The notes under the pieces: model-generated
The model's database searches: none
Told to the model about the DNA's origin: nothing
Seen by the model: only the letters and a program-made list of their open reading frames with translations
Source: Tildeniella torsiva UHER 1998/13D
GTDB taxonomy: Bacteria > Cyanobacteriota > Cyanobacteriia > Phormidesmidales > Phormidesmidaceae
Length of the DNA: 64,000 bases
Direction: 5' to 3'
Assembly (NCBI GenBank): GCA_019358835.1
Contig: JAHHIH010000009.1
Span: forward strand, 62,001 to 126,000
Position numbers and translations under genes: made by a program
Part shown: in pieces, positions 18,405 through 25,420 of the stretch
Layout: each line of letters opens with the position of its first letter
Numbering within the stretch: position 1 is the first letter of the stretch

Positions 18405-19028
18405 ATGACCAGTCCCTTTCGCGTTGGTGTGGCTGGCCCGGTGGGGTCGGGCAAGACGGCACTGGTGGATTGTCTGTGCAAGGCATTGCGCGATCGCTAC
18501 TCCATTGCGGTCGTCACCAACGACATCTACACCCAGGAAGACGCCCAATTCCTTGTCCGCAGCCAGGCCCTCAGCCCCGATCGCATCGTCGGTGTGGAGA
18601 CCGGCGGCTGCCCCCACACCGCCATCCGCGAAGACGCCTCGATGAATTTGGTGGCGATCGAGGATCTGGAGGCGCGGTTTAATCCCCTCGACCTGGTGTT
18701 TGTGGAGAGCGGCGGCGACAACCTGGCCAGCACCTTTAGCCCCGAGCTGGTTGATTTGACCCTCTATGTGATTGATGTGGCGGCGGGGGACAAGATTCCC
18801 CGCAAGGGCGGGCCGGGGATCACCAAGTCAGACTTTTTGGTTATCAACAAAATCGACCTGGCTCCCATGGTTGGGGCCAGCCTAGAGGTGATGGAGCGAG
18901 ATGCGCGGCAGATGCGGGGCGATCGCCCCTTCGGCTTCACCAACCTCAAAACCCAGGCGGGTTTGGCCACCATTATCGACTTCATTGGCTACCACGCGGC
19001 GGCTGAGCCGTTAGCCTCAATCCCTTAG
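18405..19028 (+). CDS. ureG: Urease accessory GTPase UreG
   Basis: 207 residues. The P-loop GPVGSGKT is at residues 11-18, the invariant metal-binding Cys-Pro-His is C69-P70-H71 in [13 protein letters not shown], and the GTP-specificity motif is [20 protein letters not shown] is a further family hallmark. UreG delivers nickel to urease with UreD/E/F using GTP. The other urease genes are not in the window. It lies just upstream of the urea-transporter operon, which fits a urea-use locus. The start ATG matches the family. Confidence 0.97.
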
Positions 19029-19185
19029 CTGGAAATGGTTTGAGCGGATTGAAGAGGGCCACGGCAGCGGCTTTAGCGGAGCTATGGGATTGGCTTAATT
19101 GCTGCGATCGCCCAAAATCAGTCCTTAGAAAGAGGCCATTGGGACGCACACGTCTCAGAAACGTTACAAGAAAGGAGAGGCTTTT

Positions 19186-19227
19186 GTACGCTACGCTACA
19201 TTTGCCGCCAATCACACCCCCTAATAT
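19186..19227 (+). promoter_or_regulatory. NtcA-activated promoter of the urt operon
   Basis: GTA (19186-19188), eight bases, TAC (19197-19199) is an exact GTAN8TAC NtcA site. A -10 box TAATAT lies at 19222-19227, exactly 22 bases later, which is the spacing of class II NtcA promoters. Transcription would start near 19234, about 64 bases before urtA. This predicts induction when nitrogen is limiting. Confidence 0.85.
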
Positions 19228-19297
19228 CCACTCTGACGGTCTACGTGAATTCTCGAGTAAGACAAGTCTTCCATTAAAGAGTCAGGAGCAAGGTTGG

Positions 19298-20605
19298 ATG
19301 GTAACTCGATTTAATCGACGTAAGTTTTTGGTGTACGGGTCTGCAACCCTGGGCACCTCTATGCTGCTCAAAGCCTGCGGTGGTGGCACGACCACCACTG
19401 ACACTGGCACGACCGACGGCGGCACCGACACCGCTGCCGCCGATGGCGAAACTGTCAAGGTGGGCATTCTGCACTCCCTTAGCGGCACCATGGCCATCAG
19501 TGAAACCACGGTAGTCGATGCTGAACAGCTGGCGATCAAAGAAATTAACGCCGCTGGCGGGGTGCTGGGCAAGCAAATCGAGGCTGTAGTCGAGGATGGT
19601 GCTTCTGACTGGCCTACCTTTGCTGAGAAGGCTGAAAAGCTCATCGACCAAGACCAGGTAGCCGTTGTGTTCGGCGGTTGGACTTCCGCCAGCCGTAAGG
19701 CCATGCTGCCCGTGTTTGAGTCTAAAGACCACATGCTGTGGTACCCGCTGCAGTACGAAGGCCAAGAGTGCTCGAAGAATATCTTTTACACTGGGGCAGC
19801 CCCTAACCAGCAGATTGAGCCCGCTGTAGACTGGCTGATTGAGAACAAAGGCACCGACTTCTTCCTGGTCGGCTCTGACTATGTCTTTCCCCGGACGGCC
19901 AACACCATTATTAAAGAGCAGCTCAAGGCCAAGGGCGGCAACACGGTGGGTGAAGACTACCTACCCCTGGGCAACACCGAAGTGACCCCTATCATCACCA
20001 AGATTAAGGCGGCCCTGCCCGACGGTGGCGTGATCTTCAACAGCCTCAACGGCGACAGCAACGTGGCCTTCTTCAAGCAGCTCCAGGGCGCGGGTATGGG
20101 GCCAGATCTCTATCCTGTGATGTCGGTGAGCGTGGCTGAGGAAGAAGTTCGCCAGATTGGCCCAGAGTTTCTGGTGGGCCACCTGGCTTCGTGGAACTAC
20201 TTCCAAACCGTAGAAACCCCCGAAAACGAAAAGTGGGTGGCCGACTTTAAGGCCGAATTTGGTGAAGACCGCGTTACCAACGACCCCATGGAAGCCGCTT
20301 ACATCATGGTTTACCTGTGGAAGCAGGCCGTGGAGGCCGCCGGAACGTTCGATATTCCTGAGGTGCGGACGGCAGCCTACGGCCAGGAAATGGCTGCTCC
20401 CGAAGGCCCCGTGACCATGAACACCAACCACCACCTCTCTAAGACGGTACGGCTTGGGGAAGTCATGGATGACGGCCTGTTCAACATCGTTTGGGAAACC
20501 GACGGCCCGATTGACCCTGAGCCCTGGAACCAGTTTGTGCCCGACACCATTGGCTTCGCCTGCGACTGGTCTGACCCGGCTAAGGGCGGCAAGTTTGAGA
20601 TCTAG
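19298..20605 (+). CDS. urtA: Urea ABC transporter substrate-binding protein
   Basis: About 435 residues. The N-terminus has a twin-arginine-like RRKFL followed by a lipobox LKAC (C27), so it is a lipoprotein facing the periplasm. After a Thr/Gly-rich linker come [18 protein letters not shown] and [20 protein letters not shown], which match the UrtA/AmiC-type binding fold. It captures urea for UrtBC. ATG 19298 is preferred over an upstream in-frame extension to 19040, because that extension covers the NtcA promoter and lacks a signal. AGGAGCAAGG precedes the start. Confidence 0.96.
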
Positions 20606-20650
20606 GTCTGGGCTGTAGCCGCGATCGCAGTGCTGTCGAACAGCGGTTTG

Positions 20651-20678
20651 GCGGGGATGCAGCAGGCTGTATCCCCGC
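20651..20678 (+). other. Stable hairpin between urtA and urtB
   Basis: GCGGGGAT (20651-20658) pairs with ATCCCCGC (20671-20678), extended by CAG/CTG near the loop. It begins 46 bases after the urtA stop and has no T-run. It may protect the 3' end of urtA mRNA or cause partial termination so that the binding protein is made in excess. The rest of 20606-21004 shows no gene. Confidence 0.6.
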
Positions 20679-21004
20679 TCTTGGTATCTGGCCTGGGCCG
20701 CATGCTCGGATTATCACTGCCGCTGTTGGTTTGGTCGCTAGACAATGCGATCTCTCAACTTAAAGCTGCGGGAATTTTGTCGTAGCCAGGCTTTTTCTGG
20801 TCTCGATCATGGGCTAGAAAAGCAGGGGTTAAAACAGCCGAGGGGGACGATATAAATCAAACCTTTAAACGGGCGAAAACTGTAAAAGGTGAACATTTCT
20901 TCTCTTGGGGTCACCTTAGTATTCCCCTGAGGTGGTGCCCGGTTGGCTGGGCAAACCAATTAACATTTGTTAACTAGTGCGTTGTTCTTAAATCGGTAAA
21001 GGCT

Positions 21005-22177
21005 GTGTTGGAAGGCTTAATTGGTGGCCTTTTCAATGGCATTAGCATCGGTGCAGTGCTGTTGATCGTGGCGTTGGGCTTAGCCATTGTATTTGGCTTA
21101 ATGGGGGTCATTAATCTGGCCCACGGAGAACTGATGATGTTTGGGGCCTACACCACCTTTGTGGTGCAGAATGCGGCTAAAAGCATGGGGGGAATTGCGC
21201 CGGATCTCTATATTTTTGCGGCCCTACCTCTGGCATTTTTAGTGGCCGCCCTGCTGGGGCTGTTGCTAGAGAGAACGGTGATTCGCTACCTCTACGGTCG
21301 CCCCCTAGAAACGCTGCTGGCCACCTGGGGGGTGAGTCTGATTTTGATTCAGTTCATCCGCAGCGTTAGCTGGCCTATGGTGATTGGCCTGGTGGTGTTT
21401 GCGGCGCTGTTTTTTGTCGGTCGTTGGGTGCTGACCCGCTACACCGACTGGGATCGGATATCTAGCTGGGCGAACCCGGTGTTTTTGGGGCTGAGTGGCG
21501 CGATCGCAGCCCTCACCTGGTTTTTGACCCAAAGCTCTGGCAGCGCTCAGTTTGCCCGCCCCTGGTTCGGGGCCCGCAACGTGGATGTCACGCCGCCGAG
21601 CTGGCTGCGGGGCGGCATTACCCTCGGTAACACGCTGCAATTTCCCTCGGCACGACTGTTTATTATTGCTCTCACCATTATTTGTTTGGCGGCGGTTTAC
21701 TGGTTTCTCAACGGCACAGCCTGGGGTCTGCGGATTCGATCGGTGACCCAGAATCGCGGTATGAGTGCCTGTTTGGGGATTCCTACCGGCCAGGTAGATG
21801 CGATTACCTTTGCCCTTGGGTCTGGGCTGGCGGGCATTGCCGGGTTTGCGGTGACGCTTTTGGGTTCGGTCGGCCCTAACCTAGGAGGCAACTACATTGT
21901 GGATGCCTTCATGGTGGTGGTGGTCGGCGGGGTCGGCAAGCTGGTGGGCAGTATTGTCGCGGCCATGGTAATTGGCATTACCACCTATCTGTTGGGTTCG
22001 GGCACTATGGCGCTGCTATTTCCGCCGTCAGACTTTTTCCAGCCCATCATTGGTTTCTTTACCTTCTTTGCCACCACGAGCATGGCCAAGGTACTGGTTT
22101 TTGCGCTAATTATTGCCTTTTTGCAGGTGCGGCCCGCTGGGCTGTTCCCGCCGAAGGGCCGTTCGGTGGAGCTATAG
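21005..22177 (+). CDS. urtB: Urea ABC transporter permease UrtB
   Basis: 390 residues, strongly hydrophobic, LivH-like. Typical segments are GLAIVFGLMGVINLAHGELM near the N-terminus, and SGLAGIAGFAVTLLGSVGPN with YIVDAFMVVVVGGVGKLVGS in the C-terminal half, the EAA-like region that contacts the ATPases. It forms the inner-membrane channel with UrtC. The start is a GTG at 21005 (next residue Leu, MLEGLIGGLFNGISIG). A 399-base gap separates it from urtA. It ends 4 bases before urtC. Confidence 0.95.
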   Translation: MLEGLIGGLFNGISIGAVLLIVALGLAIVFGLMGVINLAHGELMMFGAYTTFVVQNAAKSMGGIAPDLYIFAALPLAFLVAALLGLLLERTVIRYLYGRPLETLLATWGVSLILIQFIRSVSWPMVIGLVVFAALFFVGRWVLTRYTDWDRISSWANPVFLGLSGAIAALTWFLTQSSGSAQFARPWFGARNVDVTPPSWLRGGITLGNTLQFPSARLFIIALTIICLAAVYWFLNGTAWGLRIRSVTQNRGMSACLGIPTGQVDAITFALGSGLAGIAGFAVTLLGSVGPNLGGNYIVDAFMVVVVGGVGKLVGSIVAAMVIGITTYLLGSGTMALLFPPSDFFQPIIGFFTFFATTSMAKVLVFALIIAFLQVRPAGLFPPKGRSVEL

Positions 22178-22181
22178 GGCT

Positions 22182-23360
22182 ATGACTACAAATGTTGCCG
22201 TTCAACCGCGCCGCGCTGCCAAGGCCAGCGAAAAGCGCAAGCTGATGATCGAAGTGGTCGCCGTGATTGCGATCGCCCTTTTCCTGATTCTGATTCTCCC
22301 CATGCTGCTATCGGGGTTTCGGCTGAACCTGGTGGGTCGCTTTTTGGCCCTCGCGATCGTGGCCCTGGGCATTGATCTGATTTGGGGCTTCACCGGGCTG
22401 CTGAGCCTGGGTCACGGCATTTTCTTTGCCCTGGGGGGATACGCCTTTGCGATGTACCTAGAGTTAAACACTCTGGGCGAAGGACAACTCCCCGAGTTTT
22501 TTGGTCTCTACGGGGTCACGGAGCTGCCGCTGTTTTGGCAACCTTTTAACTCCTTGCCGTTTACGATGCTGGCAATTTTCACCATTCCGGCGATCGTGGC
22601 GGGGCTGCTGGGCTATCTGGTGTTCCGCAACCGCATTCGCGGGGTGTACTTCTCGATTTTGACCCAGGCCGCCCTGGTGGTGTTTTTTAACCTGTTTAAC
22701 GGGCAGCAAAAGCTGATCAACGGCACCAACGGCCTCAAAACCTCCACCTCGGTGTTTATGGGCCAGCAGGTGGGCAGCGACGGTATGCGGATGTTCTTCT
22801 ACATCAGCACCGTCATCGCGCTAATTGCCATGTATGCGCTCTGCCGGTGGCTCACCAGCGGGCGCTTTGGCCGCATGCTGGTGGCCATTCGCGACGACGA
22901 AAACCGAGTGCGGTTTTCGGGCTATGACCCGACCGCCTTTAAGGTGCTGGTGTTTGCGGTTTCTGGGGCGATCGCCGGTATCGCCGGTGCCCTTTACACC
23001 GTGCAGTCGGGCATTATTTCCCCCCAGGTCATGGACATTGCCTTCTCGATTGAGATGGTGATCTGGGTTGCCGTGGGCGGGCGCGCCACCCTGGTAGGGG
23101 CGATTTTGGGTGCGGTGTTGGTGAATATGGCCCGCAGTCTGCTCAGCGAACGCTTTCCCGATGTGTGGCTGTTCTTCCAGGGGGCGTTGTTCTTGATTGT
23201 GGTGACGGCACTACCCGACGGCATCATCGGCTGGGGGCGTCGCCAATTTGGCTTGGCAGTTAGCTCAGCCCTGGGACTGTCTTCCACTGACCTGCCCTAT
23301 CTGGACGATACCCCCACCCCCGAACCCATCGTCGAAACCCCCGAATACGCCGAAAAGTAG
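22182..23360 (+). CDS. urtC: Urea ABC transporter permease UrtC
   Basis: About 392 residues, LivM-like, with a short basic N-terminal tail before the first helix. Family landmarks include LGIDLIWGFTGLLSLGHGIFFALGGYAFAM (split here: LGHG then ALGGYA), YFSILTQAALVV and GAIAGIAGALYTVQSGIISP. ATG 22182 is chosen because it lies 4 bases after the urtB stop; the longer frame to 22113 overlaps urtB. The C-terminus ends in an acidic Pro/Thr tail. Confidence 0.95.
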   Translation: MTTNVAVQPRRAAKASEKRKLMIEVVAVIAIALFLILILPMLLSGFRLNLVGRFLALAIVALGIDLIWGFTGLLSLGHGIFFALGGYAFAMYLELNTLGEGQLPEFFGLYGVTELPLFWQPFNSLPFTMLAIFTIPAIVAGLLGYLVFRNRIRGVYFSILTQAALVVFFNLFNGQQKLINGTNGLKTSTSVFMGQQVGSDGMRMFFYISTVIALIAMYALCRWLTSGRFGRMLVAIRDDENRVRFSGYDPTAFKVLVFAVSGAIAGIAGALYTVQSGIISPQVMDIAFSIEMVIWVAVGGRATLVGAILGAVLVNMARSLLSERFPDVWLFFQGALFLIVVTALPDGIIGWGRRQFGLAVSSALGLSSTDLPYLDDTPTPEPIVETPEYAEK

Positions 23361-23409
23361 TTGGAAGGTTAGAAGGTTAGAACTTTTCAACCTTCCAACC
23401 TTCTAACCC
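23361..23409. repeat. Inverted repeat built of AAGGTTAG-like units between urtC and urtD
   Basis: The left arm GGAAGGTTAGAAGGTTAGAA and the right arm beginning at 23389 (CAACCTTCC then AACCTTCTAACC) are complementary and separated by about 5 bases. Each arm has two short direct repeats. The hairpin lies directly after the urtC stop. Confidence 0.85.
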
Positions 23410-23436
23410 ATTCACCCCCTACCTATCCACTCCCCC

Positions 23437-24567
23437 ATGAGCACCAAAGTTTTAGAGATTAAAGACGTCACCGTCAGCTTTGATGGGTTTAAGGCCATCA
23501 ACAACCTCAACTTCAGCATGGATGAGGGGGAACTGCGGGTGATTATCGGCCCCAACGGCGCGGGCAAAACCACCTTCTTAGATGTGATCAGCGGTAAAAC
23601 CAAGCCCACCGAGGGCGCGGCCTACTTTAAAGGCCAAGACCTGCGTAAATACAAAGAGCACGAGATTTCGCGTCTGGGTATTGGCCGCAAATTTCAGACC
23701 CCCCGTGTTTACCTCAACCTCACCCCCCGCGAAAACCTCGACCTCTCCTGCAATCGCGAGAAGAACGTCTTCTCCACCCTCTTCAAAAAAGCCCCCACCG
23801 CCGAAAAGCGCACCGTCGGGGGGCTGCTTGAAACCATTGGCCTCGACCACAAAGCCGACATCCCTGCGGCCTTACTCTCCCACGGCGAAAAGCAGTGGCT
23901 TGAGATTGGCATGCTGGTAGCCCAGTCGCCCGACCTGCTGCTGGTGGATGAGCCGGTGGCCGGCCTCACCGACGAAGAAACTGAGCAGACCGGCAAGCTG
24001 CTAATGTCGCTGGCCGAAAGCCACTCCATTGTGGTGATTGAGCACGACATGGAGTTTGTACGCCAGATTGCTCGCCAGGTCACGGTGTTGCACCAGGGCA
24101 GCGTGCTGTTTGAGGGCACCATGGACGAGGTGCAGACCGACCCCAAGGTGATTGAAGTTTACCTGGGCAAAGAAACCGGCCTCACCCCCGAACAAATGCT
24201 GCTGCTGCGCATCGCCGCTACTATGGCCTGGGCCGACGACAACTTTGCCGACGTGCAGCAGGCGGTGATTCTCGATCGCCTCAGCCGTAAGTTTGCCCAT
24301 GCCCCCGAAGAGCAGGCCGAGCTGCGGGACGATCTCAAAAACCTGCTGGCGACAGAAATTCCGCTAGAGGATCTAGTGCCCCACCTCGCCACCCAGGCCC
24401 AGCGCGAGGAAGCCCTCATGCTCAGCTATGAGGTAATTAGCTCGAACCAGATCAACCAGACCGAGGCGGTAGTTTACCAGAAGCTGTTGAACCTGCTGGG
24501 CCTGCCCCCAGAAACCGTCAGCCGTCTAGAATCCGCTGCTTTAGAAGAACTGGCTGCTCGGGGGTAA
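23437..24567 (+). CDS. urtD: Urea ABC transporter ATPase UrtD with an extra C-terminal TerB-like helical domain
   Basis: 376 residues, whereas UrtD is usually about 250. Residues 1-245 are a complete LivG-type ATPase: Walker A GPNGAGKTTF, signature LSHGEKQWLEIGMLVAQSPD, Walker B LLLVDEPVAGLTDEE and switch His in VVIEHDMEF. Residues about 246-376 form an added all-helical region. MLLLRIAATMAWADDNFADV and LMLSYEVISSNQINQTEAVV, then LLNLLGLPPETVSRLES, repeat the pattern of TerB/DjlA-like domains (ADxxxxxxE-type helices). No frameshift or stop separates the parts. The extension could regulate transport or tether the ATPase; that is inference. Confidence 0.93.
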   Translation: MSTKVLEIKDVTVSFDGFKAINNLNFSMDEGELRVIIGPNGAGKTTFLDVISGKTKPTEGAAYFKGQDLRKYKEHEISRLGIGRKFQTPRVYLNLTPRENLDLSCNREKNVFSTLFKKAPTAEKRTVGGLLETIGLDHKADIPAALLSHGEKQWLEIGMLVAQSPDLLLVDEPVAGLTDEETEQTGKLLMSLAESHSIVVIEHDMEFVRQIARQVTVLHQGSVLFEGTMDEVQTDPKVIEVYLGKETGLTPEQMLLLRIAATMAWADDNFADVQQAVILDRLSRKFAHAPEEQAELRDDLKNLLATEIPLEDLVPHLATQAQREEALMLSYEVISSNQINQTEAVVYQKLLNLLGLPPETVSRLESAALEELAARG

Positions 24568-24568
24568 G

Positions 24569-24658
24569 TTTTGAATTTTGAGTTTTGAATTTTGAATTCA
24601 GACTCAAGCTACCCCCAGAGACTTAACTCAAAACTCAAAACTAAGCACTCAAAACTCC
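24569..24658. repeat. Complementary AT-rich tandem arrays between urtD and urtE
   Basis: On the left, TTTTGAA and TTTTGAG units repeat at 7-base steps (about 24569-24598). On the right, CTCAAAA and CAAAACT units (about 24627-24658) are their complement. The two arms can pair around a roughly 28-base loop. The array resembles heptanucleotide repeats known between genes in cyanobacteria. Confidence 0.8.
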
Positions 24659-24667
24659 AAAACCCCC

Positions 24668-25420
24668 ATGACCACTACCCTCCCCGCCCCGGCTCTACAA
24701 GACCCTATGACCGCGCCCATGCTTGAGGTTTCGGGGCTAAATTTTTACTACGGCGAAAGCCACATTCTGCGCGATGTGAGCATGACCATCCCCAAGGGCC
24801 AAATGGTGTGCCTGATCGGTCGCAACGGCGTGGGCAAAACCACCATGCTCAAAAACATCATGGGGGTGCTGCGATCGCGCACGGGCGAAATTCGGTTTGA
24901 GGGTCAGGTGGTCAACGGCTTTTCCCCCGATCGCCGGGCGCGGATGGGCATTGGCTACGTGCCCCAGGGACGAGAGGTGATTCCTCGCCTGACGGTGCGG
25001 GAGAATTTGATCATCGGCCAAGAGGCCCTGGGCAGCCGGGGCAAGGTGCAGAAAGAGGTGCCCGAGGAGATCTACGAGCTGTTTCCCGTGCTCAAGACCA
25101 TGCTCGATCGCATGGGGGGCGACCTCAGCGGTGGTCAACAGCAGCAGCTGGCGATCGCCCGCGCCATTATGGGCCAGCCCAAACTTCTGGTGCTGGACGA
25201 ACCCACCGAAGGCATTCAGCCCTCGATCATTCTCGACATTGAGGCAGCGGTGAAGAAGATTGTTAAAACTACCGGCATTTCGGTGCTGCTGGTGGAGCAG
25301 CACCTGCACTTTGTGCGCCAGGCCGACTACTACTACGCCATGCAGCGGGGCACCATTGTCGCCAACGGCCCCACCAGCGAACTCACCAACGATGTCATTC
25401 AGGAGTTCTTGGCGGTTTAG
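24668..25420 (+). CDS. urtE: Urea ABC transporter ATPase UrtE
   Basis: 250 residues by the first ATG. The core is a LivF-type ATPase: YYGESHILRDVSM, Walker A GRNGVGKTT, signature LSGGQQQQLAIARAIMG, Walker B LLVLDEPTEGIQPSI and switch His in LLVEQHLHFV. It pairs with UrtD to drive urea uptake. Family members usually start at the equivalent of MLEVSGLNF, so ATG 24719 (or 24707) is equally possible. The first ATG lies directly after a C-rich tract with no ribosome binding site. Confidence 0.95.
   Translation: MTTTLPAPALQDPMTAPMLEVSGLNFYYGESHILRDVSMTIPKGQMVCLIGRNGVGKTTMLKNIMGVLRSRTGEIRFEGQVVNGFSPDRRARMGIGYVPQGREVIPRLTVRENLIIGQEALGSRGKVQKEVPEEIYELFPVLKTMLDRMGGDLSGGQQQQLAIARAIMGQPKLLVLDEPTEGIQPSIILDIEAAVKKIVKTTGISVLLVEQHLHFVRQADYYYAMQRGTIVANGPTSELTNDVIQEFLAV

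Follow-up and report, generated by a model that had tools for sequence, protein, structure and literature searches.

The urtD gene at this locus raises the question of why the ATPase of a urea importer carries a second, helical domain at its C terminus, and what this domain might do. The gene lies in the window, which is the whole stretch of 64,000 nucleotides of Tildeniella torsiva DNA that we analyzed. Its open reading frame begins at an ATG and has no internal stop. Residues 5 to 245 of the product cover model positions 2 to 242 of the 242 in the UrtD family TIGR03411, with a score above the cut-off of 304.1 bits (Table 1). This region contains the segments that we take to be the Walker A motif (GPNGAGKTT), the ABC signature loop (LSHGEKQ), and the Walker B motif (LLLVDEP). 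Tail-less UrtDs that we inspected end 1 to 23 residues past the ATPase match. Here, residues 246 to 376 are extra, and they follow the ATPase in frame as about 130 helical residues. The first-pass annotation had described a complete ATPase, to about residue 245, that runs in frame into such a segment, and this description was correct. The urtA, urtB, urtC, and urtE genes all score above the cut-offs of their own models, within positions 19040 to 25420. Judged by these family matches, the 376-residue protein is a genuine UrtD of a predicted UrtABCDE urea importer.

Table 1. Coordinates of the urt genes and of the parts of the tailed UrtD in the window
Feature	Position	Strand	Basis or remark
urtA, urea-binding protein	19040..20605	+	TIGR03407, 610.2 bits; mechanical start, true start probably further downstream
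urtB permease	21005..22177	+	TIGR03409, 359.8 bits (cut-off 250.3)
urtC permease	22113..23360	+	TIGR03408, 443.1 bits; mechanical start overlaps urtB
urtD-TerB fusion gene	23437..24567	+	376 aa plus stop; TIGR03411, 379.8 bits
UrtD nucleotide-binding domain, residues 1-245	23437..24171	+	TIGR03411 at 5-245; PF00005 at 22-175
Presumed Walker A, GPNGAGKTT, residues 38-46	23548..23574	+	Invariant in 24 aligned fused UrtDs
Presumed ABC signature loop, LSHGEKQ, residues 147-153	23875..23895	+	(Nearly) invariant in alignment of 24 fused UrtDs
Presumed Walker B, LLLVDEP, residues 167-173	23935..23955	+	Invariant in 24 aligned fused UrtDs
PF12399, C-terminal end-piece of LivG/UrtD-type ATPases, residues 223-246	24103..24174	+	Pfam; ordinary UrtD ends nearby
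TerB-like helical tail, residues 246-376, seven predicted helices	24172..24564	+	PF05099, E 1.2e-4; fold model
ADDNFADVQ, counterpart of (A/S)DGxLxxEE of unfused relatives	24232..24258	+	G and both E positions changed here
urtE, second ATPase	24668..25420	+	TIGR03410, 322.5 bits, residues 19-250; ordinary length of 250 aa, no tail

Other features of the cluster were also seen. UrtB has 390 residues against a model of 291 positions, which matches it in three stretches, and the region from about 120 to 180 looks by eye like a hydrophobic insertion. The gap between urtD and urtE (24568 to 24667) holds repeated stretches similar to ttttgaatttt and to aactcaaaac, for which hairpin pairing is possible. 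The gene directly 5' of urtA (18405 to 19028) resembles UreG by eye. Upstream of the likely true urtA start, at 19186 to 19199, the sequence GTACGCTACGCTAC is an NtcA-like palindrome (GTAN8TAC). We rejected this site as a signal, because the window contains 5 GTAN8TAC sites and 3.8 are expected, which is chance level.

The extra residues had been likened to TerB and DjlA. We found that the tail alone matches the Pfam TerB family (PF05099) with an E value of 1.2e-4 and 22.8 to 23.0 bits, which is below the gathering score of 24.4, and matches DUF533 (PF04391) with an E value of 0.017. In the full-length protein, PF05099 scores 19.5 bits. The matches that Pfam listed for this protein include no J domain, and the likeness to DjlA is therefore not supported. 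A PF05099 search of the same genome placed the urtD tail third of 8 matches, with 22.4 bits. Another contig of this genome (G000:C10:35836-36144) carries a 230-residue frame whose TerB matches together reach 39.9 bits, above the Pfam cut-off.

The relatives of the tail gave a similar picture. In an alignment of 27 tails (13 fused, including that of the window, and 14 unfused), every row matches PF05099 at an E value of 0.1 or better, with 4.9e-7 as the best, and 20 of the 27 match DUF533. Nine columns are invariant across these fused and unfused rows. Bit scores were obtained for 28 relatives, of which 6 exceed the gathering score of TerB: 5 of the 12 unfused proteins, which reach up to 30.5 bits, and 1 of the 16 fused tails (L040, from genome G015 of another family, with 26.5 bits). 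Two fused tails, L173 and L222, had no TerB match at an E value of 0.01 or better, and a comparison of 44 tails with NCBIfam pointed to no consistent family. When solved structures were searched by sequence, only weak matches came up, to 2ou3 as the sole row (E value, 0.95) and, in a second search, to 2h5n (E value, 0.56), which ranked below an unrelated protein.

For the tail alone, AlphaFold2 predicted seven helices from 44 sequences, with a pLDDT of 82.2 and a pTM of 0.72. In the full-length model, the tail is helical as well (pLDDT, 80.2; pTM, 0.60), and the placement of the domains is not reliable. VIA-align ranked 2ou3, a tellurite-resistance (COG3793) TerB-family protein from Nostoc punctiforme, as the top match of the tail model, with a Z score of 10.9 over 125 residues and an rmsd of 3.6, a score that helical bundles can reach by chance. 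The second rank went to 2h5n, which is presumably a TerB relative (Z score, 8.4), and the third to a designed protein (Z score, 6.1). Foldseek found no match to the tail model at an E value of 0.001 or better. Taken together, sequence and predicted fold make it well supported that the tail is TerB-like, which upholds that part of the first-pass annotation, but the strict Pfam rule does not call the protein a TerB member.

How widespread is the tailed UrtD? In a phylum sample of 386 genomes, 140 have a UrtD above the TIGR03411 cut-off, and the tail is present on 16 of these proteins and absent from 124, so it is not common to all cyanobacterial UrtDs. The tail-less calls were based on frame length, on the C termini read for the fetched proteins, and on a lack of profile matches to the tail there. 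The 16 tailed proteins (from genomes G000, G186, G135, G125, G161, G015, G202, G093, G110, G226, G147, G149, G374, G100, G075, and G151) span eight family groups (f1, f6, f13, f16, f20, f21, f23, and f29), of which f1, f13, f16, and f23 have tail-less UrtDs as well. A further genome, G016 of family f7, came from the search for relatives and also encodes a tailed UrtD. The fusion is present in all 11 genomes of the window's genus group, the other ten being 89 to 98% identical, and in 2 of 7 other relatives searched. In a named collection, the best 80 of 153 tail relatives comprise 39 UrtD fusions, 40 unfused proteins, and 1 locus that is out of frame (L127). Fused loci among these 80 include members of Nodosilinea, Leptolyngbya (in the wide sense), Adonisia, Spirulina, Xenococcus, Pleurocapsa, and Picosynechococcus.

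The domain itself was found in 51 of the 386 genomes by a single-sequence search and in 56, with 66 matches, by a profile search, and the profile search found no UrtD fusion beyond the 16. We scanned frames of at least 300 residues for other partner domains. Eighteen such frames have a tail match; 16 are the UrtD fusions, and those of G356 and G384 have no recognized partner. We rejected these two as other fusions because their length seems to come from GC-rich extensions of the frame on the upstream side. Among the UrtDs, the long frames of G384, G157, and G279 were rejected as tailed because their extensions are N-terminal instead. Four genomes of family f20 (G125, G135, G161, and G202) have an extra frame of about 200 residues that matches only the last two-thirds of the tail profile.

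The tailed UrtD is thus a minority architecture, neither a one-off nor universal. The tail is dispensable, because so many UrtDs lack it, including those from the same family and genus groups. Full-text literature searches gave no description of a UrtD-TerB fusion, and no experiment on the tail, among the matches listed. A term search of the accessible text of a urea-gene survey of 308 genomes (PMC6737895) did not return the words TerB, C-terminal, extension, or longer.

One well-studied strain very probably belongs to the tailed group. In the available portion of PMC6603209, the mass of UrtD (Sll0764) of Synechocystis PCC 6803 is given as 41.19 kDa. Tailed UrtDs of 373 residues from three genomes of one genus have computed masses of 41.27 to 41.33 kDa. 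The 5' urtD primer listed in the same portion of PMC6603209 has a 25-base gene-specific part that is exact in two of those three genomes. Manual translation of the 3' primer gives a terminal SVDEDGD, as in one 373-residue relative; the primer DNA is absent from the loci that we compared. Judged from the listed mass and the primers, and not from its sequence, the Synechocystis PCC 6803 UrtD very probably carries the tail. The architecture had been called unusual. This holds in that it is a minority form, but it is less rare than was implied, because Synechocystis very probably has the tail.

A fusion of this kind could be an annotation or assembly artifact, in which a stop is missed or two genes are joined. 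Nothing in the window points in this direction. The related locus L127 has the ATPase and the tail in different frames in a low-coverage metagenome-assembled genome, and we read it as a frameshift. However, the fusion is not an assembly error, because it recurs throughout the genus group and, outside it, in 2 of 7 further relatives. It is encoded in one reading frame in all 11 genomes of the group and in other families, the frame has no internal stop, and the mean dS is 0.77 for both the tail and the ATPase (113 and 111 of 120 pairs used). The mass of Sll0764 also falls close to those of the three 373-residue relatives. We therefore reject an artifact, and consider its probability to be practically nil.

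We then compared rates of change. Across 16 close sequences, the tail has a dN/dS of 0.087 and the ATPase one of 0.039, and the tail dN is about twice the ATPase dN. The tail ratio indicates that the tail is under purifying selection. With the nine invariant columns of the 27-row alignment, it suggests a conserved function of some kind. These two observations argue against the possibility that the tail merely stabilizes UrtD or the UrtD-UrtE pair, carries no signal, and is a tolerated, slowly drifting extension. In favor of such a passive role are the repeated absence of the tail among relatives, its faster change compared with the ATPase, and the very long branches of some fused tails. We consider a passive role quite unlikely.

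To follow the history of the fusion, we built one tree of the domain and one of the ATPase. The TerB-like domain tree has 120 domains (56 fused and 64 unfused) and 131 columns, after removal of matches below 40 bits, identical domains, and L127; 40 of its 117 inner branches are open. The fused tails group together except for L059 (from G151), the unfused long branch L066 lies inside the group, and the label changes three times. This tree is limited by its few columns, by long branches that meet, and by an open fork above the fused cluster. Forcing all fused tails into one clade gave a slightly better likelihood (AU p value, 0.557). The UrtD ATPase tree has 100 rows (38 fused and 62 tail-less, with L127 counted among the latter), after removal of 23 Nodosilinea-type near-copies, hits below 230 bits, sequences below 225 residues, and identical ones. 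Here, the label changes 13 times, or 12 times without L127, and at least 5 of these 12 changes are forced by well-supported branches. A single clade of the fused-row ATPases was rejected (AU p value, 0.0004). Tail and ATPase distances among the 38 fused rows correlate with a Spearman coefficient of 0.40, which none of 999 permutations reached. Among distant pairs, the correlation is weak, with a coefficient of 0.21 that was reached in 15 of 999 permutations.

We also looked for a decayed tail behind tail-less urtD genes. None was found at 63 of 64 loci (some genomes were represented twice, and two loci were short of downstream DNA), and the exception is L127, with its full tail in another frame. 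Two further downstream matches, with E values of 3.7 and 9, were dismissed as noise. Since the tails can form one clade and the ATPases of the fused rows cannot, the trees are most simply read as one old cyanobacterial fusion followed by repeated clean loss or passing-on, although trees alone cannot separate gain from loss. Several independent fusions are not needed, because a single clade of tails is compatible with the domain tree. The tailed urtD gene may have been transferred between lineages. The positions of L059 outside and L066 inside the fused cluster may reflect a second fusion event or a re-separation.

The unfused cyanobacterial TerB-like protein is encoded by frames of about 140 to 230 residues. 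The one in the genome of the window (G000:C36:213004-213381) is 49% identical to the urtD tail. Such proteins are largely separate in the tree. They have an intact DGxLxxEE motif and a loop, SSxRTPxExx, that is missing from most fused tails. We surveyed the neighbors at 41 loci without an in-frame ATPase, which lie on contigs of varying length and are among the best 80 of 153 relatives; one representative of each neighbor was named by Pfam. A cNMP-binding regulator is present at 20 of these loci (1.9 to 2.3 kb upstream in the twelve distances shown), an M61 peptidase at 13 (at most 261 bases upstream in eleven of twelve distances shown), and nadA, facing, at 13. The unfused protein, with relatives among loci L135 to L180, recurs in cyanobacteria, often near these three genes, of which the M61 gene encodes a glycyl aminopeptidase.

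TerB domains have conserved acidic motifs in helical repeats and a role with metals. The tail could be a TerB module that senses metals or stress and ties urea import to metal stress or stress of the envelope, in line with the earlier suggestion that a stress-associated domain is linked to the importer. The predicted TerB-like fold is consistent with this, and the signature is partly kept: D22 and N95 are present in all 44 rows read (20 fused and 24 unfused), and E98 is present in 18 of the 20 fused tails. However, E29, which is found in all 24 unfused relatives, is replaced by Q in 14 of the 20 fused tails, and G23, also found in all 24 unfused relatives, is kept in only 13 of the 20. The (A/S)DGxLxxEE motif is thus eroded in most fused tails read, as judged by alignment. 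The genome of the window has no match to the TerD family (PF02342) at an E value of 0.001 or better, in a search whose control matched 2 of 14 named genomes. The recurring neighbors of the unfused relatives, namely, the M61 peptidase, the cNMP-binding regulator, and nadA, are not ter genes. A tellurite or stress role, which derives from the family name and nothing else, is not supported, and a sensing module of this kind is very doubtful. We did not retain the proposed link to stress.

What, then, might the tail do? We give about even chances to the reading in which the tail is an arm of UrtD that lies on the cytoplasmic face of the importer, binds a protein there, and either regulates the importer or docks a partner. 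Urea import may thereby gain an optional input for its control, one that bypasses direct PII-UrtD binding. UrtD probably pairs with UrtE in the importer, and each transporter would then have a single tail. If so, and since UrtE is tail-less, the tail would not gate the importer by tail pairing in the manner of the MetN C2 domain. More likely, the tail would contact UrtE, or a cytosolic partner would alter ATPase closure.

The published Synechocystis data bear on which partner this might be. According to the accessible part of PMC6603209, PII bound UrtE and not UrtD in two-hybrid tests, in which NrtC bound PII, and the UrtD in these tests was very probably tailed. Because of this result, we disfavored the tail as a docking site for PII, which probably binds elsewhere. 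In the PII pull-down from urea-grown cells described there, UrtD and UrtE showed the strongest enrichment after PII itself, and the authors attribute this to the complex as a whole. Given the enrichment of UrtD, it is still conceivable that PII touches the tail.

In the same part of PMC6603209, N-terminally FLAG-tagged PII co-purified URT subunits together with UreA, UreB, UreC, UreD, UreF, and UreG. The organism is the one whose UrtD mass fits a tail. Because importer and urease subunits co-purify with this PII, docking of urease is worth considering. In this scenario, the tail would hold urease, or some other soluble enzyme involved in urea use, at the importer, which would allow urea to be passed on directly or uptake to keep pace with hydrolysis. 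The authors raise possible metabolic channeling, but they also note that PII may bind urease directly. C-terminally tagged PII gave no enrichment of UreABC in the results accessible in PMC6603209, and most UrtDs do without a tail. We regard docking of urease or a similar enzyme as unlikely.

A broader proposal joins the role to the history, and we offer it tentatively, as possible but somewhat unlikely. The tail would be an optional UrtD module, apart from the PII-UrtE contact, that connects the importer with a partner in the cytosol, for example urease. After a single ancient acquisition, lineages would toggle the link by keeping or losing the domain. If this is true, then the published co-purification of importer and urease in Synechocystis would depend on the UrtD tail. 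In the papers that we consulted, protein-level control of cyanobacterial urea uptake is described in terms of PII and UrtE, and a tail on the partner ATPase would point to a second input. The tail bears on how import is tuned and on why importer and urease co-purify. There are natural pairs with and without the tail, even inside one genus group, that of the 373-residue proteins, where the tail is present in 3 of 5 genomes and absent from the other 2.

Compared with known systems, the protein agrees with the UrtD family (TIGR03411) in its whole ATPase, which scores above the curated cut-off, and in its urtABCDE cluster, and it differs by the C-terminal residues that 124 of the 140 sampled UrtDs lack. 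The tail is like TerB (PF05099/COG3793; 2ou3) in being a helical domain, with 2ou3 as its best fold match, at a Z score within the chance range of helical bundles. It differs in that it scores under the gathering score, is fused to an ABC ATPase, and has an eroded acidic motif, in a genome where the search found no TerD. The unfused cyanobacterial protein is close to the tail in sequence, but it has the extra loop, the intact motif, and neighbors of its own. In the cyanobacterial nitrate importer, the ATPase subunit NrtC has a C-terminal domain that regulates the importer, a regulation reportedly described by Kobayashi et al. The NrtC domain is solute-binding-protein-like, whereas the UrtD tail is TerB-like. 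To our knowledge, the folds of the MetN C2 and ModC domains are not TerB-like either. MetN and ModC resemble the tailed UrtD in carrying an additional C-terminal regulatory domain on an importer ATPase, and in the part of PMC10710835 available to us, these domains act at the interface of a dimer that has two of them, whereas the UrtD partner UrtE is tail-less. NrtC and UrtD also differ in their partners, since NrtC bound PII in the two-hybrid tests reported in the accessible part of PMC6603209, whereas UrtD did not.
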